Virus record (IMG/VR): IMGVR_UViG_3300048112_000129
Coordinates: 1-25,508 of that record
Length of the DNA: 25,508 nt
Direction: 5' to 3' (one strand)
DNA from: a virus
A program made the translations under genes and the position numbers. The notes below the pieces were generated by a model. The model saw only the letters and a list, made by a program, of their open reading frames with translations. It made no database searches and was not told where the DNA came from. Positions 27 through 25,348 of the stretch are shown piece by piece. Within the stretch, counting starts at the first letter, position 1; the number at the start of each line of letters is the position of its first letter.

Positions 27-55
27 TTGAACTAATATATTAGCGGTAGTACTAT
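27..55 (+). promoter_or_regulatory. Promoter with degenerate copy of the dispersed palindrome (site a)
   Basis: A sigma70-like promoter is readable: -35 TTGAAC (27-32), a 17-nt spacer and -10 TACTAT (50-55). The left half-site TATTAG (38-43) and a degraded right half-site (49-54, 4 of 6 matches to CTAATA) place it in the AATATTAG-N5-CTAATATT family found at six other sites. The right half overlaps the -10, as a repressor operator would. The first gene starts 21 nt after the 21-bp operator frame. A separate 12-bp perfect palindrome, CTAATATATTAG, lies at 32-43. Confidence 0.6.
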
Positions 56-77
56 TTCGCTCTACTAGGAGAGTACG

Positions 78-416
78 ATGAGTATTAATGACGCAACACC
101 ACGTGATTGGGACCGTGTAACTAAGTCCAACAATTCCCACGATCTCGAAAACTATTTCGATCCTTACGACCAACCCCCAATAGCAGACCCAGTAAACGCA
201 CCCCCGCACTACAACACTGGGAACATCGAGTGCATCGAGGCTATCAAAGAGTCAATGACACACGATGCCTTCAAAGGCTACTGCAAAGGTAACGCCCTCA
301 AATATATTTGGCGCATGTCCTACAAAGGTAAACCAATCGAAGATCTCCGGAAGGCTATCTGGTACATCGAGCGCCTTATCGAATCTGAGTTGGAGCACCC
401 AACAATAGAACGATGA
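78..416 (+). CDS. DUF3310 family phage protein
   Basis: The 112-aa protein has a C-terminal half (about residues 38-105) that reads as a DUF3310 domain. It shows the P-x-H-Y motif (NAPPHYNTG), an E-x-I-E-A-I segment, FKGYCKGNALKYIWR, and a final K-x-x-E-D-L-x-K-A-x-W-Y-I-x-R-L helix. These small proteins are common next to phage replication genes; some are labelled nucleotide kinases, but no P-loop is visible here and the biochemical role is unknown. The first ~35 residues are polar and probably disordered. The start is supported by AGGAGAG 5-11 nt before ATG. It is the first gene of the early operon and its stop overlaps the next start (ATGA). Confidence 0.88.
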   Translation: MSINDATPRDWDRVTKSNNSHDLENYFDPYDQPPIADPVNAPPHYNTGNIECIEAIKESMTHDAFKGYCKGNALKYIWRMSYKGKPIEDLRKAIWYIERLIESELEHPTIER

Positions 417-637
417 GCGAGATTTGGACAGACATAGAAGGCGCAGTCGAAGAAGGGCACTTCATACAAAACCAGTTAGGTAAGACCGCCTATCTAGCAT
501 GTGACATGCAACGCAACCTTTATGTGTTTACCCACGAAGAACTCAAGACGTTCAAAAAGAAACTAAAAGTCATAGAAATCTTTCACCCTGGAGGGCGCTT
601 AAATGGACACAAAGGACTACTTTCAAAACATACCTAG
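413..637 (+). CDS. Small hypothetical protein, 74 aa
   Basis: I do not recognise the family. The protein begins at an ATG overlapping the previous stop (ATGA), which suggests translational coupling. The N-terminal part is acidic (WTDIEGAVEEGHF) and the middle has a KTAYLACDMQRNLYVFTHEEL stretch typical of a small mixed alpha/beta phage protein. The C-terminal ~12 residues overlap the next reading frame by 35 nt. The tight packing in the early operon supports a real gene; the function is unknown. Confidence 0.6.
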   Translation: MSEIWTDIEGAVEEGHFIQNQLGKTAYLACDMQRNLYVFTHEELKTFKKKLKVIEIFHPGGRLNGHKGLLSKHT

Positions 638-806
638 CCTTGACGAAGACAGGCTGCATCCCGAGTTCCATACCTACACAGCGGTATGGATGAAATCACG
701 AATGCCTCAAGCATATAACGAGCTAAAAGCCCGCTTCAAAGAAATCGAAGGCGAAGTCATGGCTCAGCACGAATGCAATGACGCCAACTCGGAGCTACCT
801 TTCTAA
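603..806 (+). CDS. Small hypothetical protein, 67 aa
   Basis: Family not recognised. A strong ribosome binding site (GGAGGGCG, about 590-597) precedes this ATG, although it lies inside the previous ORF (35-nt overlap). The protein is soluble and predominantly helical: YTAVWMKSRMPQAYNELKARFKEIEGEV. The end is joined to the DNA polymerase gene by a TAATG stop/start overlap. A small accessory protein translated just ahead of the polymerase is the best that can be said. Confidence 0.65.
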   Translation: MDTKDYFQNIPSLDEDRLHPEFHTYTAVWMKSRMPQAYNELKARFKEIEGEVMAQHECNDANSELPF

Positions 807-2599
807 TGCTAGTGACTCTTGACTTCGAAACGTATTACGACAAAAACCTTTCGCTAACTAAAATGACTACGATGGAATACGTCAGCCACGACTTGTTCAA
901 AGTGTGGGGCGTAGGCATCAAGATAAATCATGATGCAACAGAGTGGTATGGCGAAGACGATTGCGAAGAGGCGCTTCGATCCCTGAATTGGGACGACATA
1001 ACGCTGGTATGTCACAACACTCCGTTTGATGCTTATATTTTGACGCAGTATTACGGACTAATACCAAAGTACTACGTAGATACCGCTGCAATGAGTCGCG
1101 GGTTGTACCCAGGGCAAAGCGCTCGTTTGAAAGACGTATCAATACGCTGTTTCCCCGATGACGAAACAATGCGTAAAGGTGAAGAGCTAGCTAATGCTAA
1201 AGGTGTTTACGACTTAGACCCTGAACTAGAAGAAGCTATTGCTGGCTACTGCATACAGGATGTCGATCTTACTTACGCTATTTATCGTAAGTGGACTAAC
1301 CAAATGCCACTAAACGAACTTGATCTAATCGATCTCACATGCCGCATGTTCTGCGAGCCCAAGCTAAAGATTGACCGCGAACGACTGGCAAAGTACCACG
1401 AACAAGAGTTCAAGAACGCAGAGACGACCATCGCTGCAGCAGGCGTCGACCGCAAAGTCCTCAGCTCTAACCAACAATTTGCTGAGTATATTTATGAGAT
1501 TGGCCTCGTACCACCAACAAAGGTTAGCCCAACGACAGGCAAAGACATCCCAGCCCTTGGTAAAAACGACAAAGCCTTTACCCAACTGCAAAACATGTAC
1601 CCACAGTTCAAGCATGTATGGGACGCACGCATTGCCACAAAGAGTCGCTTAACCGAGACCAGGGCAAAACGCTTCTTGGAAGCTGCATGGAAAGACGACT
1701 GGTTACCTGTCCCTCTTAGATATTATGCGGCTCACACCGGACGTTTTGGCGGCACCGACAAGCTCAACATGCAAAACCTCCCTCGAGGCGGTGAGCTACG
1801 CAAATGCATTGTGGCACCTGACGACCATCTTTTGTTTGTTGCTGATTTATCCAACATCGAAGCCCGTATGCTTGCTTGGTTAGCTGGCGAAAGCGAATTA
1901 GTCGAACAATTCCGTAACGGGGACGACATATACAGTAACTTCGCCTCCAAGATTTACGAACGGCCTATCAATAAAAAGGACGACCCAATCGAAAGATTTG
2001 TAGGCAAGACCGCTATATTGGGTCTTGGTTACGGTATGGGCGCTCAAAAATTCAAAGACACGCTAGAAGCTGGAGCTATGGGACCACCTGTCCACTTCAC
2101 ACTAGAAAAAGCCAAACAAATTGTTAATACATACCGCAGTACATACTCAGGTATACAAAGACTCTGGCGCAAACTAGAGGACTTACTCAAACAAACTATG
2201 CACTCAGACAACTGGGGCAACACGTACGGGCCACTGACTGTTGGCGACAACACTCTACAACTGCCAAATGGCCTAGGGCTCAGGTATCACAACTTACGTT
2301 CTACCAGCCAAGGCCTTATGTACGACTCACGTAAAACTGAGTACACGTACGGCGGACGCATAACAGAAAACGTAATCCAAGCGTTAGCCCGCATAGTCAT
2401 TACTGACAGCATGTTACGACTCGACAAGACACACGATGTTGCACTCACAGTACACGACGAAATAATTATTACTGGTACTAATATTAAGCCTGATGCTACA
2501 ATGGAGAAGATTATCTCCGACATGTGTATACCACCTTGTTGGGCACCCGATTTACCGCTAGATGCCGAAGGCGGATACGCCAAAGAGTACAGTAAGTAA
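806..2599 (+). CDS. Family A DNA polymerase with 3'-5' exonuclease domain
   Basis: This 597-aa phage replicative polymerase should copy phage DNA and proofread. The DEDD exonuclease motifs are intact: Exo I D6-F-E8, Exo II N71-x3-D75, Exo III Y148-x3-D152. The polymerase motifs follow: motif A D347-L-S-N-I-E-A-R, the O-helix R-F-V-G-K401-T-A-I-L405-G-L-G-Y409-G-M, and motif C V-H550-D551-E552. There is no 5'-3' exonuclease domain, and the length is normal for phage PolA proteins of this type. The O-helix residue corresponding to E. coli Pol I Phe762 is Leu405. The start is an ATG in a TAATG overlap with the gene before. The csrA gene starts directly after the stop. Confidence 0.97.
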   Translation: MLVTLDFETYYDKNLSLTKMTTMEYVSHDLFKVWGVGIKINHDATEWYGEDDCEEALRSLNWDDITLVCHNTPFDAYILTQYYGLIPKYYVDTAAMSRGLYPGQSARLKDVSIRCFPDDETMRKGEELANAKGVYDLDPELEEAIAGYCIQDVDLTYAIYRKWTNQMPLNELDLIDLTCRMFCEPKLKIDRERLAKYHEQEFKNAETTIAAAGVDRKVLSSNQQFAEYIYEIGLVPPTKVSPTTGKDIPALGKNDKAFTQLQNMYPQFKHVWDARIATKSRLTETRAKRFLEAAWKDDWLPVPLRYYAAHTGRFGGTDKLNMQNLPRGGELRKCIVAPDDHLLFVADLSNIEARMLAWLAGESELVEQFRNGDDIYSNFASKIYERPINKKDDPIERFVGKTAILGLGYGMGAQKFKDTLEAGAMGPPVHFTLEKAKQIVNTYRSTYSGIQRLWRKLEDLLKQTMHSDNWGNTYGPLTVGDNTLQLPNGLGLRYHNLRSTSQGLMYDSRKTEYTYGGRITENVIQALARIVITDSMLRLDKTHDVALTVHDEIIITGTNIKPDATMEKIISDMCIPPCWAPDLPLDAEGGYAKEYSK

Positions 2600-2600
2600 T

Positions 2601-2780
2601 ATGTCGAGACTCGTTTTGACCAGAAAACTAAATGAATCTGTCGTTGTTCACCAAGACGACAAGGTTCTGCTCGCGGTCAAAGTTTCAAAAATCGACAGAA
2701 ACCAAGTTCGCCTCGCGTTTGACGCTGATCACGACATAAAAATCGATCGGCGAGAGGTGTATGACAAGCCCGAAGACTAG
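2601..2780 (+). CDS. csrA: Phage-encoded CsrA/RsmA-like RNA-binding regulator
   Basis: A 59-aa CsrA homologue, close to the usual ~60 aa. The beta1 strand S-R-L-V-L-T-R-K matches the CsrA N-terminus (M-L-I-L-T-R-R). It is followed by N-E-S, the N-Q-V-R-L-A-F core strand, and the C-terminal I-D-R-R-E-V-Y matching V-H-R-E-E-I-Y. Arg50 aligns with the RNA-contacting Arg44 of E. coli CsrA; the second basic residue of beta1 is Lys9 instead of Arg. CsrA dimers bind GGA motifs in mRNA leaders, usually blocking ribosome entry. I chose the ATG at 2601, two bases after the polymerase stop, because a longer in-frame version adds residues outside the fold. No strong RBS is seen, so expression may depend on coupling to the polymerase gene. 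Confidence 0.93.
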   Translation: MSRLVLTRKLNESVVVHQDDKVLLAVKVSKIDRNQVRLAFDADHDIKIDRREVYDKPED

Positions 2781-2804
2781 ACGCCTATCTACTTAACCTG
2801 CGCC

Positions 2805-2847
2805 TACTTGCAGTAAGTACGTCAGTTGAAGGCTCAGGAGGAGCTTT
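2805..2847 (+). promoter_or_regulatory. Primase mRNA leader hairpins; SD in a GGA loop (putative CsrA target)
   Basis: Two hairpins lie between csrA and the primase start. The first is TACTT-GCAGT-AAGTA (2805-2819). The second is AAGGCTC-AGGAG-GAGCTTT (2829-2847): seven pairs including one G-U, with loop AGGAG. The Shine-Dalgarno sequence AGGAGGAG (2836-2843) occupies the loop and the 3' stem, and the TTG start is at 2851. CsrA-family proteins prefer GGA exposed in a hairpin loop overlapping the SD, so this is a plausible target of the phage CsrA encoded about 50 nt upstream. The hairpins are read by eye; binding is inference. Confidence 0.5.
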
Positions 2848-2850
2848 AAA

Positions 2851-5364
2851 TTGCGAATAACCTTTCTTGAGGCCACTAATGGTCTCCCGCTTAGTAAGCA
2901 CTACTCAAAAGGTAGCGGTTTCAAACCATACCCGCACGTAAAAGCAGTTACGTCACATAAATACAACTTATCTGTTGATGCTGACGGCTTACAAACCTTT
3001 GAGAATCTTATTAGAGATCACGGAGCAAAAGGTCACTGCCTACTAAAGGGCAACCTAAAACGTGACTTAGTAGACGAATCTCGTGCAGGACAGACCAACC
3101 GTACCGAGTTAACAAACCTACTCGTGCTCGACATTGACGGCGTGCGCTTACCAAAATCTGTAGATACAGGCGATAAACTATCTAGTACTGACGTTACGTT
3201 TCTAGCCAATCAAATAGTTGCAGAACTACCTATTGAGTTGCGAGACATAAGCTACGTCGCGCAAGCCTCAGCAAGTTTGGGTCTTAAAGGCGACAAGATA
3301 TCTATGCATATCTTTATGCTCCTCTCAGTAGCCATGCCAGCAAAATCAGTAAAGCTGTGGCTACAAGACTGTAACTTTGAGTCTGATGTATTCAGCGAAC
3401 AAATGGAGCTGTCTGTAAACGGGCAATCATTGAAGTACCCTTTAGACACTTCAGTAGCTGACAACTCAAAGATCATATTCATAGCACCACCGTCTTTTGA
3501 ATCAACGCGACTAGACCCATTTGATTCCGACGATGATCGAATAGTTAAAGTAGACCGTGGGCAACCGACACTTGACCTAGCATCCTTGATGTCTGACATC
3601 AGCCCTCAACGTTGCCACGAGAAAGCGCAAAAGCACAAAGACACGTTGCGCGATGCAGCAGGCTTCAGCAAACGCCAAACTAAGATTCGCGTAGCAACCA
3701 TTGATAACCAAACAGAAGAAGTCCTATCTAATCCAGACAAGATGGCTATAGCCATTGTTGACGAGACTTCATTCCCATACATACGTTGCAACATCAACGG
3801 CGGAGACTCTGGCGCGTACTACTTCAACATGTCCAAGCCAACGTACATGTACAACTTCAAAGACGAACCACTGTTTGAGATCGAGAAAGCCGACAAAGAT
3901 TTTTACGTATCTATATTCGAACGTTACGAAGAGCGGTTAGAAGAAGTGGGACATGCAGTCAAACCAGTTGTACTGCGCGATTACTCAACTGACACCTTCT
4001 TCAACGGCGTGTATGACCCAAACACTAAACAGTTCGCTAAAGAATATCCGCTGACCCCCATCAGTAAGATGAACATCGAAGACTTCTATATGAATCACGG
4101 CAAAGTACCGCCTGACTTCATACCAGACGGACGCGTTATCTTTGACCCGACATCTAATGAAGAAGCTATTAACTTCAACAAAGTGCCTTACTACGTCAAC
4201 ACGTATCAAAAAAGCGACTACGTGCGTAATGCGCAGACGCCGCAAGTACCGTTAGAGATAGGCCACGGACAACGGATAAAGGACACCTGTCCACTGATAC
4301 ACACAATCATCTACCACATACTTGGCAATGGTGATGAAGAATACGAGCGCTTTATTAACTGGCTAGCATACATCTACCAGACGCGTAAAAAGACGGGCGT
4401 ATCCTGGGTACTGACAGGCACACAAGGCACTGGTAAAGGTGTCTTCTACTCCAAAATCCTCAGAGGGCTATTCGGTACACCACATGTACCCATGAAGTTT
4501 CTGCAAAGCATGGAAGAACAATTCAATCTGTATATGCGAGACGCGCTGTTTCTAGTGGTTGATGAGTTCCATATGGCATCAGCATCATCTAGCGCAGGTA
4601 AGATGGCAGACAAACTAAAGAACCAGATCACTGAGCCTACGATCACAATACGTGGTATGCGGTCCAATCAAGTAGAAGTTGAGTCTTACACCAACTATCT
4701 GTTCTTAACGAACAGGGTAGACGCAGTAAACATCGAGACTGGTGATCGCCGGTACAACATTGCACCCAAACAAGAAGAGAAGCTGCTCGAAAAGTTCCCA
4801 GGCATTGCCAAGCAATTAGACTCAGGAAAACTCGAGAAAGAACTGTATGAATTCGCTGGGATAATGCAAACGTACAAAGTAGATGCGCACCTAGCTAAGA
4901 CTGCAATTAACAACCTTGCTAAAGAACAGATGCGTAACGTATCAATGTCTGTGTTTGAAGAGTTCTGTCAGGCACTTAAAGAAGGCAAGCTAAGCTACTT
5001 CACTGACATTCTTGATATCAACACAGCAACTGTACTGCACTCCAACGAGATTGAAGCAGCGCAACGACTTGTTAAATCATGGATCGCTCACGCAGAGCAC
5101 CCATATATGGTTCTCCCAATGGAGCATCTGCGTACGGTATTCCACGTACAGACAGAGCAAAACCCGCGCCTGTCGCAACGTGAGTTTACAAAGCGCATGA
5201 GTAGAAACGGCATTGAGACAGAACGCAAACGCCCACACGGAGCAGCTAGAGATACAAATCCAATACGCGGAGTTGTTACTACGTGGCAGTCAAACGAATT
5301 AGAACTCAAGCGATTGCAGGAATCATATTTCACGGAACAAGACCGTAAATTGCTTACGGTTTAG
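2851..5364 (+). CDS. Phage primase-helicase (P-loop C-terminal ATPase, DUF5906-like)
   Basis: This 837-aa protein probably primes and unwinds DNA at the fork. The C-terminal half carries a Walker A G523-T-Q-G-T-G-K529-G and a Walker B hydrophobic strand ending D571-E572-F-H, followed by a sensor-like F-L-T-N-R segment. This is typical of phage D5/SF3-like helicases with DUF5906. The N-terminal third has L-L-V-L-D-I-D-G, compatible with a primase (AEP-like) active-site strand, but I cannot confirm the complete primase triad. The start is TTG, preceded by a strong AGGAGGAG; the rare start plus the leader hairpin suggests tight translational control. The stop lies just before promoter/palindrome site b. 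Confidence 0.85.
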   Translation: MRITFLEATNGLPLSKHYSKGSGFKPYPHVKAVTSHKYNLSVDADGLQTFENLIRDHGAKGHCLLKGNLKRDLVDESRAGQTNRTELTNLLVLDIDGVRLPKSVDTGDKLSSTDVTFLANQIVAELPIELRDISYVAQASASLGLKGDKISMHIFMLLSVAMPAKSVKLWLQDCNFESDVFSEQMELSVNGQSLKYPLDTSVADNSKIIFIAPPSFESTRLDPFDSDDDRIVKVDRGQPTLDLASLMSDISPQRCHEKAQKHKDTLRDAAGFSKRQTKIRVATIDNQTEEVLSNPDKMAIAIVDETSFPYIRCNINGGDSGAYYFNMSKPTYMYNFKDEPLFEIEKADKDFYVSIFERYEERLEEVGHAVKPVVLRDYSTDTFFNGVYDPNTKQFAKEYPLTPISKMNIEDFYMNHGKVPPDFIPDGRVIFDPTSNEEAINFNKVPYYVNTYQKSDYVRNAQTPQVPLEIGHGQRIKDTCPLIHTIIYHILGNGDEEYERFINWLAYIYQTRKKTGVSWVLTGTQGTGKGVFYSKILRGLFGTPHVPMKFLQSMEEQFNLYMRDALFLVVDEFHMASASSSAGKMADKLKNQITEPTITIRGMRSNQVEVESYTNYLFLTNRVDAVNIETGDRRYNIAPKQEEKLLEKFPGIAKQLDSGKLEKELYEFAGIMQTYKVDAHLAKTAINNLAKEQMRNVSMSVFEEFCQALKEGKLSYFTDILDINTATVLHSNEIEAAQRLVKSWIAHAEHPYMVLPMEHLRTVFHVQTEQNPRLSQREFTKRMSRNGIETERKRPHGAARDTNPIRGVVTTWQSNELELKRLQESYFTEQDRKLLTV

Positions 5365-5384
5365 TTATTAGTTATACTAATAAA
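5350..5384 (+). promoter_or_regulatory. Promoter with palindromic operator (site b)
   Basis: A perfect inverted repeat TTATTAG-TTATA-CTAATAA spans 5365-5383, a member of the dispersed AATATTAG-N5-CTAATATT family. A sigma70-like promoter overlaps it: -35 TTGCTT (5350-5355), 17-nt spacer, -10 TATACT (5373-5378). The start codon of the nuclease gene lies 24 nt after the 21-bp operator frame. The -35 is inside the end of the primase gene. A bound protein would cover the -10. Confidence 0.65.
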
Positions 5385-5408
5385 ATAGAACAAAATAGAA
5401 GGATTCAA

Positions 5409-6158
5409 ATGGTTCAGCTTACTCAGGATGCGAGACCAGATGGCAACAAGCCAATGGAAAAGCCAACAGAGCTAGGTCCGCTCAGGGCCTGGTCTTACTC
5501 TGCATTAAAAGTTTACGAAGACTGTCCGTATCGTTCGTACATCCAAAAAGTAAAGAAGATACGTGAGCCTTCTGGTCCTGCAGCAGAGCGCGGCACCATG
5601 ATTCACCAAGAAGCAGAAGACTACGTCAACGGTACGCTTGGCGAGTTCCCCGACTCATGCAAAAAGTTTAAGAATGAATTCGAAGAACTGCGCGCTGGCT
5701 TCATCGATGCAAAGGTTGAGCTAGAAGGTGAGTGGGGCTTTGATCTTGACTGGCAACCAGTCGGATGGATGGAAGCTGCTACATGGGCTCGTATTAAACT
5801 GGATGCACTTGTACACGAGGACGAACAATCAGCACGAGTCATCGACTACAAAACAGGCAAAAAGTGGGGCAACGAAATTGCGCACAGCCAACAAGGCTTA
5901 CTTTACGCCATTGGTACGTTCTTTAGGTTCCCACAACTCGAGTTCGTACAAGTTGAGTTCTGGTATCTCGATAAAGGTGAGACTACCAAGAAACAATACA
6001 GCAGAGAGCAAGCTATGCAGTTCGCTCCAGGCTGGCACAAGCGCGCAGTCATAATGACTACAGCTACAGAATTTGATCCGACACCTAGCAAAGACAGCTG
6101 CAGGTGGTGTTCATACCGTAAAGGCGACCACCCCGAGTGTCATTGGGGCGTCGACTAA
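5409..6158 (+). CDS. Cas4/RecB-like PD-(D/E)XK exonuclease with probable Fe-S cluster
   Basis: A 249-aa nuclease of the RecB/Cas4 group. Motifs in order: S30-Y-S-A-L-K-V-Y-E-D-C39-P-Y, then G-T-M-I-H66 (motif I His), L-D132-A-L (metal-binding Asp), V-I-D146-Y-K148-T-G-K (catalytic motif), S-Q-Q-G-L-L-Y-A (motif Q-x3-Y type), and C-terminal C231-x2-C234-x9-C244. The lone N-terminal Cys39 plus three C-terminal cysteines is the Cas4/AddB layout for a 4Fe-4S cluster. It probably acts as a DNA end-processing exonuclease in phage replication or recombination. The RBS GAAGGA precedes the ATG. The gene has its own promoter and is closed by a strong terminator. No CRISPR array or cas1/cas2 is nearby, so a CRISPR adaptation role is not supported here. 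Confidence 0.9.
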   Translation: MVQLTQDARPDGNKPMEKPTELGPLRAWSYSALKVYEDCPYRSYIQKVKKIREPSGPAAERGTMIHQEAEDYVNGTLGEFPDSCKKFKNEFEELRAGFIDAKVELEGEWGFDLDWQPVGWMEAATWARIKLDALVHEDEQSARVIDYKTGKKWGNEIAHSQQGLLYAIGTFFRFPQLEFVQVEFWYLDKGETTKKQYSREQAMQFAPGWHKRAVIMTTATEFDPTPSKDSCRWCSYRKGDHPECHWGVD

Positions 6159-6188
6159 CCAACTTACTTCCCCTCCGATGTAAGTCTT

Positions 6189-6228
6189 GCCCCACTAAGT
6201 GTACCCCTTACTTAATGGGGCTTTTTTT
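6189..6228 (+). terminator. Rho-independent terminator
   Basis: The stem pairs GCCCCA with TGGGGC, then one mismatch, then TAAGT with ACTTA. It is followed directly by seven T residues (6222-6228). It lies 30 nt after the nuclease stop and separates the first replication block from the small-gene block. Confidence 0.9.
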
Positions 6229-6272
6229 CGCGCATAAAAAAGTATCTAACCATCAATTTTAAGGACTAATTA

Positions 6273-6398
6273 ATGCTCCGTTTATTACTAAACGCCGTCT
6301 TGTTTTTCGAAATATTTACATTCCTTCGAAAAATCTCAGAAGAAAAACCAGACGACCAACCAATAGATGAGGACGAACACAATGATGCAACCCTTTGA
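6273..6398 (+). CDS. Small membrane-anchored peptide, 41 aa
   Basis: The peptide begins M-L-R-L-L-L-N-A-V-L-F-F-E-I-F-T-F-L-R-K, one hydrophobic helix of about 17 residues, and continues into a very acidic tail (E-E-K-P-D-D-Q-P-I-D-E-D-E). AAGGA, 8-12 nt before the ATG, is a good RBS. It overlaps the next small ORF by 17 nt. Family not recognised. The pairing with a second single-helix peptide suggests two small membrane proteins made together, perhaps acting on the host envelope or as superinfection factors; this is a guess. Confidence 0.6.
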   Translation: MLRLLLNAVLFFEIFTFLRKISEEKPDDQPIDEDEHNDATL

Positions 6399-6534
6399 AT
6401 ACATAATCGCAGGCAGCGTGCTTGTGCTGTTTGCTTTGCTCACTTATGGAGGTTTCCTCATTGTCCAAGACAAAGAGCAGGCCTACAGAGATCGTCGCAA
6501 CGGGAGAAAAAACAATGAAAGAAATAAGCGCTAG
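6382..6534 (+). CDS. Small single-pass membrane protein, 50 aa
   Basis: The sequence begins M-M-Q-P-F-E-Y and has one clear transmembrane helix (about residues 8-28, I-I-A-G-S-V-L-V-L-F-A-L-L). A strongly basic tail follows (Y-R-D-R-R-N-G-R-K-N-N-E-R-N-K-R), so the positive-inside rule places the C-terminus in the cytoplasm. GAGGA lies upstream of the start. It overlaps its neighbours on both sides. Function unknown. Confidence 0.65.
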   Translation: MMQPFEYIIAGSVLVLFALLTYGGFLIVQDKEQAYRDRRNGRKNNERNKR

Positions 6535-6694
6535 CCACGAATCACGAACCTACGGTCAACGTATCCGATTCCAGATCGAGTTCATGCACACCATGTTGGC
6601 CTCGGGCCGTGAGATCGAAGCACTAACCGCGATCAACAAAGCACTGGATCTAGCCGACGAAGTGCATCAGTTGGAGACAAAAGATGACCTATAA
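6515..6694 (+). CDS. Small helical hypothetical protein, 59 aa
   Basis: The protein starts M-K-E-I-S-A-S-H-E-S with GGGAGA 7 nt upstream. A longer in-frame reading exists but lacks an RBS and runs through the preceding membrane-protein gene. The body is helical, with FQIEFMHTML and ALTAINKALDLADEVHQLE resembling a helical hairpin. Family not recognised. It overlaps both neighbours by 11-20 nt, typical of a tightly packed phage operon. Confidence 0.65.
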   Translation: MKEISASHESRTYGQRIRFQIEFMHTMLASGREIEALTAINKALDLADEVHQLETKDDL

Positions 6695-6878
6695 AGAGCT
6701 ACTTACTGGACATATAAAGGAGATGTTTGACGATGCAAATGTACTACAAACGCGATGGGAGCGCAGTCGAATACAAGCTCGTAACCGACCCAAAAGAAGC
6801 GACAGTGTGGAGTACACACCGTTTGAAGAAGTCCGAAATCAAGATCATGACGAAATGCGATCGGATAACAGCCGCTGA
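6684..6878 (+). CDS. Small hypothetical protein, 64 aa (competes with the frame at 6733)
   Basis: ATG with GGAG 7 nt upstream, overlapping the previous gene by 11 nt. The N-terminus M-T-Y-K-E-L-L-T-G-H-I-K-E-M-F-D-D-A looks like a real helical protein, but the rest is Arg/Ser/Asp-rich and could be the shadow of the +1 frame ORF starting at 6733. Either both are genes or only one is. No recognised domain. Confidence 0.45.
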   Translation: MTYKELLTGHIKEMFDDANVLQTRWERSRIQARNRPKRSDSVEYTPFEEVRNQDHDEMRSDNSR

Positions 6879-7032
6879 ATACAGACAGGAGATCCTCGAT
6901 GACATCCTCAGCCGTGAACCTAATCCCAGTAAAAAATCTGCGCCCCCCGCAGACGAGATATCTAAAAGGCGTCAAGCCGCCAAGCCTCAACATGCTAAAG
7001 CGCGGCAAACAAAACAAAAAGTTGGGCGATAA
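6733..7032 (+). CDS. Hypothetical protein, 99 aa, overlapping the Gp88-like gene
   Basis: This reading frame starts at ATG 6733 after AAAGGAG (6716-6722). The N-terminal ~60 residues look natural (MYYKRDGSAVEYKLV, DPKEATVW, RITAAEYRQEILDDIL). The C-terminus is Lys/Ala/Pro-rich and overlaps the following gene by 134 nt in another frame. It also overlaps most of the 6684 ORF. I favour it as a real small protein because of the composition of its first half, but the case is not settled. Confidence 0.5.
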   Translation: MQMYYKRDGSAVEYKLVTDPKEATVWSTHRLKKSEIKIMTKCDRITAAEYRQEILDDILSREPNPSKKSAPPADEISKRRQAAKPQHAKARQTKQKVGR

Positions 7033-7594
7033 AGTATCTGTCAAAATGTGGAAAGGCATGACTATGTACTCGCTGTCTCTAGAAGAACGCGCTACATGCC
7101 CATCTGACTGTGAGCAGTGGGACAACTGCTACGGTGACAACATGCCGTTCGCTCATCGTTTTGATCACAACGACCATAACTTCATTGGGTATTTAGAGAT
7201 GCAACTCACAGAGCTTAACGACAAGCATCCAGATGGTTTTGTTGTACGACTGCATGTCCTGGGTGACTTCTACGACGGCAGATACATAGTCCAGTGGCAG
7301 TTATGGTTACACCAATTTGAGAACCTACGCGTGTTTGGCTACACGCATCACACAGCAGATTCTCAATTGGGTAATATGATCAACAACGTAAACCGCTTGC
7401 ACAGCGATAGGTTCCGTATACGTTTCAGTGATGACTGGGACCAAGAGTTCAGCGCTCATGTTGTCCAATCAAGAGACTTAGAATACGTCGAGCACGGTGT
7501 TGTATGTCCCGAGCAACTAGGTAAAACAGACAGCTGTTCTTCTTGTGGCTACTGCTGGTCCAGCGATCAACCTGTTGTTTTTATTGAGCACTGA
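6899..7594 (+). CDS. Gp88-like Cys-rich phage protein
   Basis: A 231-aa protein with the look of the phage 'gene product 88' family. It has an N-terminal Lys-rich G-K-Q-N-K-K-L-G segment, then a Cys knuckle C67-P-x2-C71-x5-C77-Y-G, the central V-R-L-H-V-L-G-D-F-Y-D (residues 116-126), an F-G-Y-T-H strand, and a C-terminal cluster C203, C213-x2-C216-x2-C219-W. Seven cysteines in two clusters suggest bound zinc or an Fe-S cluster. The biochemical function of this family is not known to me. The start has AGGAG upstream but lies inside the 6733 ORF, so a later start is possible. The gene ends just before palindrome site c. Confidence 0.7.
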   Translation: MTSSAVNLIPVKNLRPPQTRYLKGVKPPSLNMLKRGKQNKKLGDKVSVKMWKGMTMYSLSLEERATCPSDCEQWDNCYGDNMPFAHRFDHNDHNFIGYLEMQLTELNDKHPDGFVVRLHVLGDFYDGRYIVQWQLWLHQFENLRVFGYTHHTADSQLGNMINNVNRLHSDRFRIRFSDDWDQEFSAHVVQSRDLEYVEHGVVCPEQLGKTDSCSSCGYCWSSDQPVVFIEH

Positions 7595-7612
7595 TATTAG
7601 TAAGGCTAATAA
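7584..7612 (+). promoter_or_regulatory. Promoter with palindromic operator (site c)
   Basis: The perfect inverted repeat TATTAG-TAAGG-CTAATA (7595-7611) belongs to the dispersed palindrome family. -35 TTGAGC (7584-7589), 17-nt spacer and -10 TAATAA (7607-7612) are in the same register as sites a and d. Unlike the other copies it abuts the next ATG (7613), so a transcript from it would be nearly leaderless for that ORF; it may mainly serve the helicase downstream. Confidence 0.6.
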
Positions 7613-7786
7613 ATGATCATAACAAAGCGTGAGTTGTTACAGCTCACACCTAAGAAAATCAAAGTATCAGGCCACTACGGCTTTGAAGAAGAAAGCAGAC
7701 TTGCTTACTGCAAGTGCCAACCTCAATGGCGTATTGGCGACTGGCCAAATAACTGTAGAAGTTGCGGTAGAAGAATCCGCATTTGA
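7613..7786 (+). CDS. Small zinc-ribbon protein, 57 aa
   Basis: The peptide begins M-I-I-T-K-R-E-L-L-Q-L-T-P and has a C33-K-C35 ... C48-R-S-C51-G-R-R four-cysteine ribbon, suggesting one bound zinc ion. A basic end (R-R-I-R-I) could contact nucleic acid. Only AAGG (7602-7605) within the palindrome spacer could act as RBS. No family assignment; probably a small DNA- or protein-binding accessory factor between two regulated promoters. Confidence 0.55.
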   Translation: MIITKRELLQLTPKKIKVSGHYGFEEESRLAYCKCQPQWRIGDWPNNCRSCGRRIRI

Positions 7787-7812
7787 TTCAAAATATTAGC
7801 TGTGCTAATATT
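7783..7812 (+). promoter_or_regulatory. Promoter with palindromic operator (site d)
   Basis: The perfect 8-5-8 inverted repeat AATATTAG-CTGTG-CTAATATT (7792-7812) is the clearest early-side copy. The promoter -35 TTGATT (7783-7788), 17-nt spacer and -10 TAATAT (7806-7811) overlap it, so the right half-site contains the whole -10. The helicase ATG lies 25 nt after the palindrome. Confidence 0.75.
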
Positions 7813-7837
7813 ATCAACCATCAATGAGTGATGACCT

Positions 7838-9588: not shown

Positions 9589-9630
9589 CCGTAAAACTTA
9601 ACAACTGACATTTAACAAGGAACAATCGAT

Positions 9631-10293: not shown

Positions 10294-10335
10294 TAGCCAT
10301 TCCTCCAGGTCAAGGGCGCGGGATTGCGTCCTGAT

Positions 10336-10371: not shown

Positions 10372-10379
10372 TTTACTTT

Positions 10380-10811
10380 ATGAACGAGCACAGTTTTGTA
10401 CGAAGCATACATAACGCTCTGTCACCCGACGTCTACAAGTGGAAAATCCACGACACGTATACGGGAGGTGTGCCCGACGCCATGTATGCAGGCCCTGCAG
10501 GTGTGCTGTTCGTAGAGTACAAGTATGTCAAAGCTCTACCTAAGAAAGACACGACCGTGATCCGCCATTCGTTATCAGCGCTTCAATGTGCGTGGCTCGA
10601 GCGTATGAAAGCCAGTACATCAGTAGCATTAATATTAGGTGTAGGTGATTCAGCACTAATAATAGTTGACGAGTTCGCAGCTAATATATATAAATCTAAC
10701 TATGTAGAGGAAAGTATTCCACGGAAGCAGGTAGCTGAGTGGATCTACAACCAAACACACTCAGGAAGAGCACATGAAAAAAGCCCACGAGTTGCCACAG
10801 GCTGTGAATAA
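10380..10811 (+). CDS. VRR-NUC domain nuclease, 143 aa
   Basis: A compact PD-(D/E)XK enzyme of the VRR-NUC group. G-G-V-P-D33-A-M-Y precedes V-L-F-V-E46-Y-K48, the catalytic D...E-x-K; S-A-L-Q69-x2-W72-L follows, as in the family. Such phage nucleases cut branched or flap DNA and accompany SNF2-like helicases. The start has no strong SD sequence. The interval before it can form alternative hairpins, so translation may be regulated. The gene's end overlaps the XRE regulator by 38 nt. Confidence 0.9.
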   Translation: MNEHSFVRSIHNALSPDVYKWKIHDTYTGGVPDAMYAGPAGVLFVEYKYVKALPKKDTTVIRHSLSALQCAWLERMKASTSVALILGVGDSALIIVDEFAANIYKSNYVEESIPRKQVAEWIYNQTHSGRAHEKSPRVATGCE

Positions 10812-11349
10812 CTTACGCGCTATTTGGGACCAAAAGAAAGCTGAGATGAAGTTTACGCAAGTTGAAGCTGCGGCAAAACTTGGCTGGTCACAAAGCGCTG
10901 TATCTCATTATCTTAACGCTATTACTGAACTTGGCCCTGCGGCAATTATTAAGTTTGCTAATTTTTTGGGTGTTGATCCTGTTGAGATCGACCCGAACGT
11001 TCAAGAGTTCTTGCCTCACACTAGAACTCGAATAATCAAATATGACGTTGCCAATCTGTCAAAACAAATCAATGTAAAATACTACGATACTCACCCCCCA
11101 TCTTCTTTTTGGGTAAAAACAGACTCTAGCGTATTTACTTACCAAACCCATAGCGCGAACAAGAATGCTACGTGGTTCACTCATGTGTGCCCGCCAAAAG
11201 ACCACCCCAGAGCTAGCATTTATATGGTCCAAATTAAGGGCCAAAAAGAAGGTCGCATTTACAAAAAAGAAGACTTACCGCCAGAATCAGACATACATAA
11301 AAAGTTCGCCGTACTTGAGACAGAAGTTAACAACAGCATTACCGATTGA
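10774..11349 (+). CDS. XRE-type transcriptional regulator (probable phage repressor-like)
   Basis: A 191-aa protein. The N-terminal helix-turn-helix (about residues 26-48) reads K-F-T-Q-V-E-A-A-A-K-L-G-W-S-Q-S-A-V-S, followed by F-A-N-F-L-G-V-D-P-V-E-I, the usual XRE end. The C-terminal ~90 residues (S-S-F-W-V-K-T-D-S, then I-Y-M-V-Q-I-K-G) recall the S24/LexA-like dimerisation domain, but the G-D-S-M and K dyad motifs are not visible, so self-cleavage is not supported. GGAAGAG precedes the start. It is co-directional with replication genes, not divergent as in lambda-type switches. It is the best candidate for the protein that binds the dispersed palindromes, one of which lies directly after it. 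Confidence 0.82.
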   Translation: MKKAHELPQAVNNLRAIWDQKKAEMKFTQVEAAAKLGWSQSAVSHYLNAITELGPAAIIKFANFLGVDPVEIDPNVQEFLPHTRTRIIKYDVANLSKQINVKYYDTHPPSSFWVKTDSSVFTYQTHSANKNATWFTHVCPPKDHPRASIYMVQIKGQKEGRIYKKEDLPPESDIHKKFAVLETEVNNSITD

Positions 11350-11366
11350 CTTTGGCAGTACCTAGA

Positions 11367-11389
11367 CTAATATTAGCTACACACATATT
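11367..11389 (+). promoter_or_regulatory. Imperfect palindromic operator (site e)
   Basis: AATATTAG-CTACA-CACATATT (11369-11389): the left half is perfect, the right half 6 of 8. CTAATATTAG (11367-11376) is itself a 10-bp palindrome. It lies between the XRE gene and the excisionase-like gene, 21 nt before the GTG start. No convincing -35 box is seen. Confidence 0.5.
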
Positions 11390-11410
11390 CGTTGCAGGAG
11401 GCAACTCTCG

Positions 11411-11623
11411 GTGGAACAGATCTTATTAGAGAAGTACGGCCCGTTCATGGACTTGGAAGAACTTGCCAATCTATTAAGGATCAAGAAACAGTCGGTGTAT
11501 CAGCAGATATATCGCGGCCAACTAGACGTACCTCATGTACGGCGCGGTAAAAAGTATCTTTTTCCGACTCAAGAAATTGCTAAATACTTCACATCCCAGC
11601 TAAATCTTCCGCGCGGAGATTGA
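11411..11623 (+). CDS. Excisionase/AlpA-like HTH protein, 70 aa
   Basis: GTG start with AGGAGG (11396-11401) nine nt upstream. The fold signature is M-D-L-E-E-L-A-N-L-L-R-I-K-K-Q-S-V-Y-Q-Q (residues 13-32), followed by G-Q-L-D-V-P-H-V-R-R-G-K-K-Y-L-F and an E-I-A-K-Y-F helix. This is the MerR-like helix-turn-helix plus wing of HTH_17/excisionase proteins. Its place beside the integrase suggests a directionality factor or a regulator of integration. The last 35 nt overlap the 3' end of the integrase gene on the other strand. Confidence 0.8.
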   Translation: MEQILLEKYGPFMDLEELANLLRIKKQSVYQQIYRGQLDVPHVRRGKKYLFPTQEIAKYFTSQLNLPRGD

Positions 11624-12611
11624 CGTACCTTGAGAGTTGTTCAAGTGAGCTGTGTCCCGAAACAACTTGCACTTGTTCAACTCGCATCCCCCTCTCAAAC
11701 ATCCGACTTATCGCCTCATGACGCAAATCATGGAAGCGCAGGTCGTCAATCCCCAGCTTCTTAGTCATCTTGGCAAATTTGTCAGAAATCGACGCAGTAG
11801 TCCTTACAGTGAAAGGGTAATCACCTTGCCCAAGATCATTCTGTGCACGTAGCAACGCCTCTCTCACGCCCTCCACAAGCGGTACTTCCTTCCAAGACTT
11901 GCCTGTTTCTGAGTCTTTATCTTTCCGATTCACGCGGACAAGATCCTTTTCCCAGCACACGTTAGACCATTTTAACTCGTGAATTTCCCCTTGGCGTAGA
12001 CCAGAGTGAACAGCTATATCGATCGCGTACCACAGCCAATTAGGTTTTTCATTACTGCCTTTATAAATGCCGCACTCAAACTTCAGTGCTTCTAGTTCAG
12101 ACGGGGTTGGCCGACGCGTACGCCACACGCTGCCTTTGATCACCTTCTTTCTTTTCAGCTCGTCGATAGCTTGCGCCACAACATTCTCTTGAGTTGTGAT
12201 CCGACTGGCTTCTACGACCTGACGCAAGTAGTACATTTGTTTTTGAAGCGTTGAAGCGGAAATCGTTTTGTAGCGCATAGCTGCAAAATCCATAACCATG
12301 TCGTAGGTCATATCGTGTATCGATACACCGCTAAAATATTTTTTGATCTGATTAAGTTGTCCCATCTTCGGGACAGGGGTAACGATTTCAAACTTAGTAT
12401 TTTCGGCTACTAATCGGTCGACCAAGTAATCAATGTGAGTAGACCGCGTACCGCTGACGTCTACCCACGAATGACTGTCCATCTGGGATTCTATTTTTAA
12501 AACCCATGAAGCGGCGGCTGCCTTAGTAAAAAAACTTTGTGTTTGTTGCGGGTAACCCTTGATGCGGATCTGAGCTTTCCACTTCTTTCCGCGCTTTGTT
12601 ATCGTTGCCAT
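11589..12611 (-). CDS. int: Tyrosine recombinase (phage integrase)
   Basis: A 340-aa integrase. An N-terminal arm-binding-type segment (G-K-K-W-K-A-Q-I-R-I-K-G, residues ~8-19) is followed by a core-binding SAM-like region (about 55-155) and the catalytic domain. Catalytic residues: R206 (H-S-G-L-R), Lys near 230-238, H294-x2-R297 (H-D-L-R-H), H320 (S-G-H-S), and Y329 (R-Y-V-N-L). All are present, so it should be active. The ATG is chosen at 12611; the two TGGCACAC repeats lie directly upstream, overlapping the likely leader or RBS. The adjacent tRNA-Ser-like attP core supports site-specific lysogeny. Confidence 0.97.
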   Translation of the reverse strand: MATITKRGKKWKAQIRIKGYPQQTQSFFTKAAAASWVLKIESQMDSHSWVDVSGTRSTHIDYLVDRLVAENTKFEIVTPVPKMGQLNQIKKYFSGVSIHDMTYDMVMDFAAMRYKTISASTLQKQMYYLRQVVEASRITTQENVVAQAIDELKRKKVIKGSVWRTRRPTPSELEALKFECGIYKGSNEKPNWLWYAIDIAVHSGLRQGEIHELKWSNVCWEKDLVRVNRKDKDSETGKSWKEVPLVEGVREALLRAQNDLGQGDYPFTVRTTASISDKFAKMTKKLGIDDLRFHDLRHEAISRMFERGMRVEQVQVVSGHSSLEQLSRYVNLRAEDLAGM

Positions 12612-12613
12612 CA

Positions 12614-13310: not shown

Positions 13311-13319
13311 GGTTATCTC

Positions 13320-13808: not shown

Positions 13809-13809
13809 A

Positions 13810-18164: not shown

Positions 18165-18181
18165 CGTAACCTCTTGCACTT

Positions 18182-18210
18182 ATTATATTAGCTATGCTAA
18201 TACTTTTAAA
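18182..18210 (-). promoter_or_regulatory. Late promoter with palindromic operator (site f)
   Basis: The inverted repeat TATTAG-CTATG-CTAATA (18186-18202) is a perfect 6-5-6 copy of the dispersed palindrome. On the minus strand, -35 TTTAAA (18210-18205), 17-nt spacer and -10 TATAAT (18187-18182) overlap it. The structural gene start is 19 nt beyond the operator frame. Confidence 0.7.
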
Positions 18211-18212
18211 CA

Positions 18213-21897: not shown

Positions 21898-22015
21898 GTC
21901 TTTTTACCAATTGAGCCACCTGCTCTTCGAGTTCAGAAATACGGTCTTCTGTTTCTGAAAAGTGCTCCATAATTACGTCAAGCGTGTTTTCTAATTTTCG
22001 AGCTATATCATCCAT
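21881..22015 (-). CDS. Coiled-coil peptide, 44 aa
   Basis: An ORF with a TAATG junction to the fibre gene. M-D-D-I-A-R-K-L-E-N-T-L-D-V-I is followed by hydrophobics in heptads (I-S-E-L-E-E-Q-V-A-Q-L-V-K-R-L). It looks like a short trimeric or dimeric coiled coil that could serve as a fibre chaperone or joint. No database family known to me. Confidence 0.6.
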   Translation of the reverse strand: MDDIARKLENTLDVIMEHFSETEDRISELEEQVAQLVKRLEETS

Positions 22016-23190
22016 TAGTCTTCCGTCCACTGTGAGCCATCCCAATAACGGCGATTGTTAGCGCCTTGACTGCCTACTTCGGTCTCATTACCCGTTGCTG
22101 TAAGTCTTTCGTAAACCACCGTGGACGTATCCCGATTCGTGTTAGTCGATCTACTTGTCCCTGTGTCATGCGCGGTAGTGTTGTTAGTGTCAAAAGTCGT
22201 AGTGAACGACGTAGTAGTTGATCTGCTTGTTCCAGTAGCCCGCGACGTATTAAACGACGTAGTAGTTGATCTGCTGGTGCCAGTGGCGCGAGACGTAGTA
22301 ACCGACGTAGTAGTTGATCTGTTGGTGCTAGTGGCGCGAGACGTGGAGAGGTACGTGGTGGTTGCTTTGCTCGTGCCGCGAGAGGTTCCGCGAGAGGTTC
22401 CACGGGTGGTTCCGCGAGAGGTTCCATAAGTAGTGGTGCGAGAAGTGCTGCGGGTTCTGGCGAGCCTCTTAATTCGATACTGTGTGGTCGTGACGCTATA
22501 ACCGTCAACAATAGAACTGTGTGTAGCGCCCCGCTGGTATGTAAAACCGCCTGTCGTATAAGTGGTGCTGGCTGCTAAAGATGTGGAATTTAATTGACTA
22601 CCGTACCACCAGAATTGGGTGCCAGAGCCAGCGATATTGCCGCCAGATATACGTGTTACACGGTAACTTGTGCTGTACGCTGGGTAGCTTTGTGCGTGTG
22701 TCTGTGTGTTAAACGACGTGCTACGCGACGTGTTAAACGACGTGACGATAGCCGTATTGAACGATGTAGTGTACGACGTATTGAACGACGTAGTAGTTGA
22801 TCTGCTTGTACCGTAAGTGGTCGTTGTGTTGAACGACGTGGCGGTTGCTTTGGCGGTGCCAAAAGAAGTCGTGGTGTTAAAGGCTGTAGTCGTAGCGTTG
22901 CTTGTACCAAAAGTAGTGGTCGTGTTGAACGCTGTAGTCGTAGCGTTGCTTGTACCAATGCTCGTACTATAAGTCGTTGTATAGCTGGTCGAAGTGTCAA
23001 ACGCTGTAACTGTACCAAAAATGGTACTGGTGTCTCTGGTTGTGTCGTAAACAGCATTCCAGACAGTGCCTAACGTACCGTTGTTGTTGGCAACCACATA
23101 GTTAACGCCATAAAGCGTCCCCTGGTCACCTTTAGCGAAGATTTGGGTAGGCTCTTTAAGAGTACCACTGTCGTTAACTTTTATTGACAT
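22015..23190 (-). CDS. Thr/Ser-rich repeat tail fibre protein, 391 aa
   Basis: The protein has a conserved-looking N-terminus (S-I-K-V-N-D-S-G-T-L-K-E-P, then G-V-N-Y-V-V-A-N-N-N-G-T). Then comes a 16-residue repeat array (residues ~79-165), a globular-looking insert (~167-245, W-W-Y-G-S-Q-L), a second repeat array (~248-358, first G-T-S-R-G, then the 16-residue unit), and a C-terminal G-S-Q-G-A-N-N-R-R-Y-W-D-G-S-Q-W. The unit is about G-T-S-x-x-T-T-T-x-F-N-T-x-x-x-x. Almost half of the arrays is Thr or Ser. It is probably a fibre or spike that meets the host surface. The AAGGG before the ATG fits as RBS. The adjacent glycosyltransferases make it a candidate for O-glycosylation. Confidence 0.85.
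   Translation of the reverse strand: MSIKVNDSGTLKEPTQIFAKGDQGTLYGVNYVVANNNGTLGTVWNAVYDTTRDTSTIFGTVTAFDTSTSYTTTYSTSIGTSNATTTAFNTTTTFGTSNATTTAFNTTTSFGTAKATATSFNTTTTYGTSRSTTTSFNTSYTTSFNTAIVTSFNTSRSTSFNTQTHAQSYPAYSTSYRVTRISGGNIAGSGTQFWWYGSQLNSTSLAASTTYTTGGFTYQRGATHSSIVDGYSVTTTQYRIKRLARTRSTSRTTTYGTSRGTTRGTSRGTSRGTSKATTTYLSTSRATSTNRSTTTSVTTSRATGTSRSTTTSFNTSRATGTSRSTTTSFTTTFDTNNTTAHDTGTSRSTNTNRDTSTVVYERLTATGNETEVGSQGANNRRYWDGSQWTED
22186..22329 (-). repeat. 48-bp tandem repeats coding R-S-T-T-T-S units (fibre array 2)
   Basis: Three near-identical 48-bp copies; the shared stretch CGACGTAGTAG begins at 22207, 22255 and 22303. Each encodes a 16-residue unit (residues 288, 304, 320 onward). Such repeats can expand or contract by slippage or recombination. 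Confidence 0.8.
22765..22956 (-). repeat. 48-bp-period repeats coding G-T-S/A units (fibre array 1)
   Basis: Four more diverged copies of the 16-residue unit, with Gly-Thr at residues 79, 95, 111 and 127. The nucleotide copies are less similar than in array 2, which suggests array 2 is younger. Confidence 0.75.
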
Positions 23191-23199
23191 GGCTGGCCC

Positions 23200-23787: not shown

Positions 23788-23799
23788 GAGAAACCTCTC

Positions 23800-24225
23800 T
23801 TACGAAGCGGTTATTGCCCAAGTCACGGTCATAGCGTCTGAAGAACCTTTGTTGACTGTCGCAAAGACTGTTCTACACAACATTGTGCCGCCGCTAGAAG
23901 CGTTCAGGATCGCTGCTTCAGTAAGAGCCGCCGTGGCTGTGCCAGCTGGGAACGTAGCTACGTAAGTAATAACGTTGCTGCTAACAGTGGTAGAGGTTAA
24001 ACCCACACGTCCAGACTCCGTACCAAGCGCGGTATCACCTGCGGCTGCCGCTGTGTTGTCTGTGCCCGTAGCCATGTGACTCATAGCACCAGCTGTGGTG
24101 TCTTTCATGCGGCTCGCAACGTAACCCTTGCCAGCCGTAACGACGAGGTTGGGTATCTCTTGCACCACTTCATTGTTGATTGCCACGGTTACATGGCCTG
24201 TCAGTTTTAATGCTTCATTAATCAT
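23800..24225 (-). CDS. Virion structural protein, 141 aa
   Basis: The protein starts M-I-N-E-A-L-K-L-T-G-H-V-T-V and is rich in Ala, Thr, Val and Gly, with beta-rich segments (V-I-T-Y-V-A-T-F-P, then T-E-A-A-I-L-N-A-S-S-G-G). This pattern recurs in tail and baseplate proteins beside fibres, but I cannot name the family. AGGATA serves as RBS. Context between fibre genes supports a tail role. Confidence 0.75.
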   Translation of the reverse strand: MINEALKLTGHVTVAINNEVVQEIPNLVVTAGKGYVASRMKDTTAGAMSHMATGTDNTAAAAGDTALGTESGRVGLTSTTVSSNVITYVATFPAGTATAALTEAAILNASSGGTMLCRTVFATVNKGSSDAMTVTWAITAS

Positions 24226-24234
24226 GGTTTTATC

Positions 24235-24927
24235 CTATGAATTAAGTGTGAATGTGTTTAATGCTGAGGTGTTCAGTACAGCGTTGTGACCAGCTCTTAT
24301 CTCGTAACTAAAACTGTCTGAAAACGACAGAACATTTGTTTTCTCGACGCCCCAGTTCGGGCTAACGTTTACTACTTCGTCCAGACCGAACGCTTCGGTA
24401 AAGCCTCTGGAAAAATTCGCAACTCGGCTAAACGAGTCAGACACCGAAAACGCGTCGCTTGCAGGTTTGGCATAAGTACTGCTGTATAAATCTCCGAGCG
24501 ATATAGAGTCTGTCTTGCTTGTATCAAATGCTCGATCTATTACTTCGGACAGAGCGACCTGATCACTAATACCTTTGTCAAACGTAAAGACAGATGCGTC
24601 TGTCACCGCAAACGAATCGGTAAAGTCACGTATAACTGTCACCAGCAAAGTGACTGAGTCGCTAAATCCAACGCTATCAACTGCGCTTTTAGCTAACGCA
24701 ATGGCCTGAGATTCAGTGAATCCCAAGCTGTCTAAAGTGGTCTTTTGCGTATAGAGCGCTGCTACATCCGAAAAATTAAACAGGTTGTCGAAATACTGAT
24801 TTATTGGATACGCATCCAACTTAATCTCAGTAGCAGTCATGTCCGTGTAAGACACTTCGCCCTTTGCTAACTGGTAGGCAGCTCTGCCTGTAATTTTTAC
24901 GTAAGTAACGCTAGCCTTCGGACCCAT
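24235..24927 (-). CDS. Repeat-containing virion protein, 230 aa
   Basis: After ~45 N-terminal residues, nine copies of a motif close to D-S-x-x-[FVL]-[ST]-[DE] occur at about residues 47, 66, 84, 104, 122, 140, 158, 178 and 198, a period of 18-20. The acidic, regularly spaced motif suggests a solenoid or calcium-stabilised rod in the tail. The start overlaps the previous stop (TAATG). Family not named. Confidence 0.8.
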   Translation of the reverse strand: MGPKASVTYVKITGRAAYQLAKGEVSYTDMTATEIKLDAYPINQYFDNLFNFSDVAALYTQKTTLDSLGFTESQAIALAKSAVDSVGFSDSVTLLVTVIRDFTDSFAVTDASVFTFDKGISDQVALSEVIDRAFDTSKTDSISLGDLYSSTYAKPASDAFSVSDSFSRVANFSRGFTEAFGLDEVVNVSPNWGVEKTNVLSFSDSFSYEIRAGHNAVLNTSALNTFTLNS

Positions 24928-25301
24928 TAGTCAAAATCACTACGTACTTTTAGCTTTAACAAGTCATAAACAGTCTGAATACCGCCGTTAGCAAAGGTCA
25001 TTTCAATTTCACCTTCAAACGTACCAGCTGTATCTAGCGTCCCAGTGGGGAAGTTAGTGGCTACTTTCCCGCTCGTGGCATCAGTTACCGTGCAGTTGAG
25101 TGTGCTCTTCACGGTTGTACTGCCAAGCTCTCGTATACGTAGTTTTACCGAGCCGCCTGTTATATCAATCGGAGCCCATGTGGCGGAGTCATTTTCGTCT
25201 AGCGTTTTGCCAGACGCTGCGGACTGACTGTCTTTTAGCGTAAAAGTCAGCTCTGGCAGAGTGTCACCTGCAACAAGGTTAAGTGTTTGTGAATACGCCA
25301 T
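24927..25301 (-). CDS. BppU N-terminal-domain-like baseplate protein, 124 aa
   Basis: The protein begins M-A-Y-S-Q-T-L-N-L-V-A-G-D-T-L-P-E-L-T-F, then D-I-T-G-G-S-V-K-L-R-I-R and G-T-F-E-G-E-I-E-M-T-F. This is the beta-sandwich pattern of DUF2479/BppU N-terminal domains used to anchor receptor-binding proteins to the baseplate. AGGTGT precedes the ATG. It is the first gene after promoter site g and so leads the fibre unit. Confidence 0.78.
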   Translation of the reverse strand: MAYSQTLNLVAGDTLPELTFTLKDSQSAASGKTLDENDSATWAPIDITGGSVKLRIRELGSTTVKSTLNCTVTDATSGKVATNFPTGTLDTAGTFEGEIEMTFANGGIQTVYDLLKLKVRSDFD

Positions 25302-25323
25302 TTTTACACCTGTATGTTATCTG

Positions 25324-25348
25324 ATTATATTAGCTGAACTAATATAAT
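25324..25348 (-). promoter_or_regulatory. Late promoter with the longest palindromic operator (site g)
   Basis: A perfect 10-5-10 inverted repeat, ATTATATTAG-CTGAA-CTAATATAAT. On the minus strand a TATAAT -10 lies in the right half. The -35 is weak (TAGCAT at 17-nt spacing), so an activator may be needed. The BppU-like gene start lies 24 nt beyond the 21-bp operator frame. It separates that gene from the lysin. Confidence 0.7.

Follow-up and report, generated by a model that had tools for sequence, protein, structure and literature searches.

What does a short palindrome repeated along both strands of a viral genome do, and which protein reads it? This question is posed by IMGVR_UViG_3300048112_000129, a virus record of about 25.5 kb whose 25,508 nt were analysed as one stretch, referred to here as the window. 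A preliminary description of this DNA took seven copies of the palindrome for operators of one phage-encoded regulator covering early and late genes, and named the XRE protein encoded from position 10774 as the best candidate. As argued below, we consider it highly likely that the 17-bp operator, TATTAGYNNNRCTAATA, is the binding site of this XRE protein, which would act as a CI-like repressor and maintain lysogeny by occluding many promoters.

A rightward early block of the window encodes a family-A polymerase, CsrA, a DUF5906 primase-like protein, a nuclease and a helicase. It is followed by the XRE protein, an Xis-like HTH_17 protein and a tyrosine integrase, and the virion genes run leftward. 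The local gene order is VRR nuclease - XRE - HTH_17 - integrase, with XRE at the end of the early operon:

10774..11349, plus strand: XRE (HTH_3) protein of 191 aa, with a lambda-CI-like DNA-binding domain and a beta-rich C-terminal domain; the proposed repressor
11411..11623, plus strand: Xis-like HTH_17 protein; probable target of XRE via site e
11589..12611, minus strand: tyrosine integrase, which together with XRE and HTH_17 forms a conserved lysogeny block

Two other genes deserve mention. The CsrA homologue (Pfam PF02599; 2562-2780) is kept in relatives and has an operator about 87 nt upstream, within the polymerase gene. A late protein of 391 aa (22018-23190) consists mostly of Thr/Ser-rich repeats (TSxATTTxFNT), and is probably a fibre.

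Distribution of the palindrome in the window and its relatives

All seven of the sites described earlier, a to g, are present where they had been placed. An eighth, at 2467-2483, had been overlooked; it recurs there in relatives. The proposed operators of the window are as follows:

21..37, plus strand: operator a1, TAATAC-TTGAA-CTAATA; first of a tandem pair ahead of the DUF3310 gene
38..54, plus strand: operator a2, TATTAG-CGGTA-GTACTA; promoter TTGAAC 27-32, 17 nt, TACTAT 50-55
2467..2483, plus strand: operator in the 3' end of the polymerase gene, TATTAC-TGGTA-CTAATA; about 87 nt before csrA
5366..5382, plus strand: operator b, ahead of a PD-(D/E)XK nuclease gene (5409)
7595..7611, plus strand: operator c, abutting the ATG of a 57-aa ORF (7613); TTGAGC 7584-7589, 17 nt, TAATAA 7607-7612
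7794..7810, plus strand: operator d, ahead of the helicase gene (7838); promoter TTGATT 7783-7788, 17 nt, TAATAT 7806-7811
11367..11387, plus strand: operator e, degenerate (CTAATATTAGCTACACACATA), ahead of the Xis-like HTH gene; TTGACT 11346-11351, 16 nt, TAATAT 11368-11373
18186..18202, minus strand: operator f, ahead of an internal virion protein gene (ATG 18164); TATAAT -10 at 18187-18182
25328..25344, minus strand: operator g, ahead of a 124-aa late gene (25301); TATAAT -10 at 25329-25324

Several details of the preliminary description can be refined. Site a, given as a single degenerate copy at 36-56, is real but comprises two copies in tandem, 21-37 and 38-54, spaced 17 bp centre to centre. 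Close relatives keep both, and the loop of a1 holds most of the TTGAAC -35 of the DUF3310-gene promoter. Site g is indeed a perfect 10-5-10 palindrome (25324-25348), and the palindrome at d, reported as 8-5-8, is better than that, namely, 9-3-9 (AATATTAGC-TGT-GCTAATATT). Six of the seven sites had been said to lie 19-25 nt before a start codon; the remaining one is c, whose right half-site lies 1 nt from the ATG at 7613. Sites e and g were said to have no good -35, which is correct for g, as it is for the other late site, f, but not for e, where TTGACT-16-TAATAT is usable. The loop of site c, TAAGG, can double as a Shine-Dalgarno sequence, and thus a putative repressor site and a ribosome-binding site coincide through the 5-nt loop, as also observed with AGGAGG at two sites of the relative G053 (1025 and 6958).

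The motif is far more frequent than composition predicts. With up to three mismatches, the pattern proposed earlier has 8 matches in the window against 0.07 expected from shuffles, and core sites with at most one mismatch number 6, whereas each of 30 Markov simulations gave 0. When every 6-bp inverted half-site with a gap of 0-12 was ranked without bias, TATTAG with a gap of 5 was the only half-site having at least three exact copies in the window, and TATTAG-N5-CTAATA ranks as the top palindrome in the window and in relatives G006, G010 and G015, as well as in many XRE-seeded loci.

More than 100 related contigs were gathered by polymerase, XRE and virion-protein searches. A set of 208 sites from 26 records consists of symmetric, palindromic 17-mers, 116 of which (56%) precede an ORF start by 0-60 nt, compared with 7.8% of random positions; these relatives are unannotated metagenome contigs with ORFs called by a simple script, and related contigs are not independent samples. 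Another 56 of the 208 sites, 14 of them exact, were called intragenic, some of them due to the crude ORF picker. The copies thus cluster just upstream of gene starts on early and late strands alike, where they precede primase-like, nuclease, helicase, Xis-like, packaging, head and tail genes. The palindrome inside the polymerase gene lies about 115-135 nt from the gene end in relatives, with differing DNA and encoded residues (TATTACTGGTACTAATA, AATTAGCCAAGCTAATA, TATTATTGCAGCTAATA and others).

Records longer than 45 kb with XRE and the TATTAG operator carry 7-18 sites at no more than one mismatch, in keeping with at least about ten dispersed operators; the maximum of 18 is found in G042, the genomes of these long records being about 60 kb. 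Such numbers, ahead of gene starts on both strands, support the proposal of a single phage-encoded regulator of early and late genes. G042 is probably a complete genome of about 57.7 kb: its start (1-3354) is repeated at its end (57.7-61.1 kb), site 1952 being the same as site 59688 and the integrase appearing twice. A second palindrome, the multicopy ATTGC-N7-GCAAT (G025, 5197-7030; G033, about 41253-41673), was considered as an operator and rejected, since in G025 it is mainly a 30-bp coding repeat within one long ORF.

Geometry of the proposed operator within promoters

Sites were oriented by the downstream gene. In 34 of the 116 sites, the TAATAT of the right half-site is then preceded by TTG at a spacing of exactly 17 nt, compared with 0-5 for other spacers (12-22) and with 4 for TTG-17-TAATAT in the opposite orientation; the count of 34 is dominated by orthologues of the helicase promoter, where the -35 is at the same time the coding end of the gene before it, which in part explains this dominance. 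After merging orthologues, the 17-nt peak persists in 9.9 of 54 clusters, any other spacer reaching at most 3.2. The earlier claim that the right half-site overlaps the -10 is therefore sustained by a sharp peak that survives the removal of orthologous copies. A TATAAT register three bases further on was found 17 times, compared with 4 when the sites were reversed, and belongs mostly to the late strand. We do not claim it as a separate promoter class, as 13 of 45 late sites against 4 of 71 become 6 of 27 against 1 of 44 without orthologues.

Together, the TTG peak and the TATAAT register imply that the palindrome occupies the spacer between -35 and -10 as well as the -10 itself. A standard consensus promoter scan showed no excess of promoters, because it demands a near-consensus -10, and we preferred the aligned-site test. 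Since the spacer has the normal length of 17 nt, the geometry argues against MerR-type activation and for occlusion.

These data also bear on whether the palindromes could instead be RNA hairpins, such as terminators, processing sites or CsrA targets. Short A/U stems are possible, the phage encodes CsrA, and there are the Shine-Dalgarno sequences in the loops at c and at two sites of G053. However, CsrA requires GGA, which is missing from most loops, the stems are A/U-rich without T tracts, csrA is still present in relatives free of the motif, and the -35 geometry is a feature of DNA, all of which makes this reading scarcely credible.

Evidence for the XRE protein as the candidate binder

The palindrome is very probably read by the XRE protein of the window. 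First, the motif depends on the presence of XRE. Four relatives (G028, G038, G040 and G049) have the polymerase, CsrA, helicase and virion genes, but XRE, HTH_17 and integrase are absent, and they carry 0-1 sites. G042, whose polymerase and helicase are 70% and 77% identical to those of the window, has XRE and 18 sites, whereas G040 is similarly close (69% and 77%) and is without XRE.

Second, the operator changes with the recognition helix or the loop that follows it, which, together with the absence of the motif where XRE is missing, bears out the nomination of XRE. Among XRE-seeded loci, 58 with the canonical helix contain 242 TATTAG sites, and 51 of them have at least two; the other seven have fewer than two clear sites, although one of these phages, G058, has sites with two mismatches at the corresponding promoters. 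Where the helix WSQGAISHY becomes W[GK]QSNFSHY, the operator is TAGTAC-N5-GTACTA: six loci with the SNF/SLF helix have 13 TAGTAC sites and no TATTAG site. Where the loop after the helix changes from IT to ETP or VVP, the operator is TAATAG-N5-CTATTA, with 12 TAATAG sites and one TATTAG site in four loci. Three QTP loci have mixed operator types. Finally, the relative G053 (virion protein 64% identical to that of the window) has the helix WGQSNFSHYIANIN and no TATTAG site (at most one mismatch) in 55 kb, together with about a dozen ATAGTA-N7-TACTAT sites, many at equivalent places.

The same comparisons speak to two other possible binders. Phages can borrow host regulators; a host transcription factor is nevertheless very unlikely to bind the palindrome, because the motif is absent in relatives without XRE and the operator varies with the XRE helix. 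Moreover, one scan of bacterial genomes returned a single gammaproteobacterial MAG contig, and the 3.4-Mb gammaproteobacterial bin that includes L195 has two exact sites, both on the XRE-bearing contig of L195 and none elsewhere in the bin. The Xis-like HTH_17 protein encoded from 11411 is a most improbable binder as well, even though it is conserved next to XRE and integrase. L108 and G041 keep TATTAG with an HTH_17 protein only 40-48% identical, G053 (45%) does not, and therefore divergence of HTH_17 fails to predict the operator; in addition, G021 has four sites and no HTH_17 detected in 30.7 kb. This protein is more likely a target than a binder.

The XRE protein itself resembles lambda repressor. 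It matches Pfam HTH_3 (E 2.7e-10), and its predicted structure (mean pLDDT 91) has the lambda-186 hybrid repressor as top structural match; the HTH of the model superposes on lambda repressor 3kz3 with an rmsd of 1.3 over 68 columns and 32% identity. A third line of evidence for XRE as the binder is that, across relatives, its conservation is confined to the HTH, where the recognition helix is nearly invariant, and the C-terminus is variable or missing (85-aa forms). The operators of lambda CI have 17 bp and begin with TATCA, Gln44 reading the A at position 2. XRE has an invariant Gln40, which we take to be the equivalent of Gln44, and its proposed operator, also of 17 bp, begins with TATTA. 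The two systems thus share an HTH fold and a 17-bp palindromic operator that overlaps promoters and in which an invariant Gln faces the A at position 2. They differ in that operators are found here at many promoters rather than at OL/OR, no divergent cro-like gene was found beside XRE in the gene order, and the catalytic serine of the S24 Ser-Lys dyad, which serves RecA-stimulated cleavage, is not conserved: XRE has no Pfam match to an S24 peptidase C-terminal domain and no invariant serine, and the domain is absent in some relatives. SOS self-cleavage is therefore unlikely, and repression by XRE would be lifted in some other way.

A putative mechanism of repression

Binding itself, dimerisation, repression as opposed to activation, and expression of XRE in the lysogen are what we infer from these sequences. 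A lambda-CI-like XRE would bind the operator as a dimer. As the typical operator fills the -35/-10 spacer and has its right half-site in the -10, bound XRE would exclude sigma70 RNA polymerase. Because copies precede replication, packaging, head, tail and Xis-like genes, one XRE could silence early and late operons directly, so that late genes of the prophage would not be left to an activator cascade, and XRE probably silences the whole viral genome during dormancy. This scheme involves two further features near XRE:

10666..10694, plus strand: candidate XRE-gene promoter inside the preceding gene, TTGACG, 17 nt, TATAAA, with a lone CTAATA half-site in the spacer
10947..10963, plus strand: weak operator-like site in the XRE gene, TATTAA-GTTTG-CTAATT

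In the lysogen, XRE would probably be expressed from its own promoter at 10666-10694, which has only the lone half-site and is not in the output of the standard consensus scan. Lone or degenerate sites near XRE could provide mild feedback; the half-sites before XRE are conserved, which coding constraint may partly explain. Simple promoter occlusion fits poorly at site c and the few others that touch a start codon; such sites might be roadblocks, as has been proposed for the stoperators of L5.

Alternatively, XRE might bind these sites to activate transcription, or to time lytic growth in the manner of Cro, rather than to repress in lysogeny. Being encoded last in the early operon, it could act late in infection and not in the lysogen; promoters with a TATAAT and a weak -35, as at the late sites f and g, could need help. 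Yet a dimer bound in a normal 17-nt spacer and over the -10 should block polymerase, the presence of XRE tracks the integrase block, and its fold matches that of lambda CI. We thus regard this alternative as unlikely, and a CI-like repressor as the better description of XRE.

Comparison with known systems and implications

Near-identity searches among named phages gave zero matches, and searches with XRE among named phages gave only weak ones, to repressor-like proteins; our literature search, of incomplete coverage, found no report of this operator. The system works like those of P1 C1, L5 and MrpR, yet it is a member of none. First, P1 C1 is also one repressor with many operators, 22 of them, dispersed over the phage genome, but these are asymmetric 17-bp sites (ATTGCTCTAATAAATTT) (PMC8546580), whereas the operators of the window are symmetric 17-mers. 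Second, the repressor of L5, a Cluster A mycobacteriophage, likewise has more than 20 sites spread genome-wide in promoters and short intergenic gaps, which are however asymmetric 13-mers that follow the direction of transcription and are bound by a monomer (PMC9283540), as opposed to palindromes with an embedded -10. Third, SPBRE of Bacillus SPbeta provides a precedent for an operator first found in silico: this repeated intergenic element was predicted and later confirmed as the site of the MrpR master repressor in promoters. The fold of MrpR is that of a tyrosine recombinase, and its motif spans 15 bp (PMC10516654), in contrast to the CI-like HTH (HTH_3) and 17-bp palindrome described here.

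With these results, a probable lysogeny switch and its operators are assigned to marine phages known here from metagenomes alone, and immunity groups could be predicted from sequence alone, by combining helix class with operator class. One repressor shifting in concert with ten or more operators amounts to a natural experiment in which a regulon acquires a new specificity while keeping control, a process that, to our knowledge, has been studied mainly in mycobacteriophages. On balance, we favour the view that a single CI-like repressor directly switches early and late operons, through an operator built into each promoter, in a large clade of temperate, uncultured marine phages. On several occasions this repressor and its operators, 10-18 in number, would have moved together to a new specificity (TATTAG, TAATAG, TAGTAC), so that natural classes of immunity arose and operator type can be read from the helix as a code.
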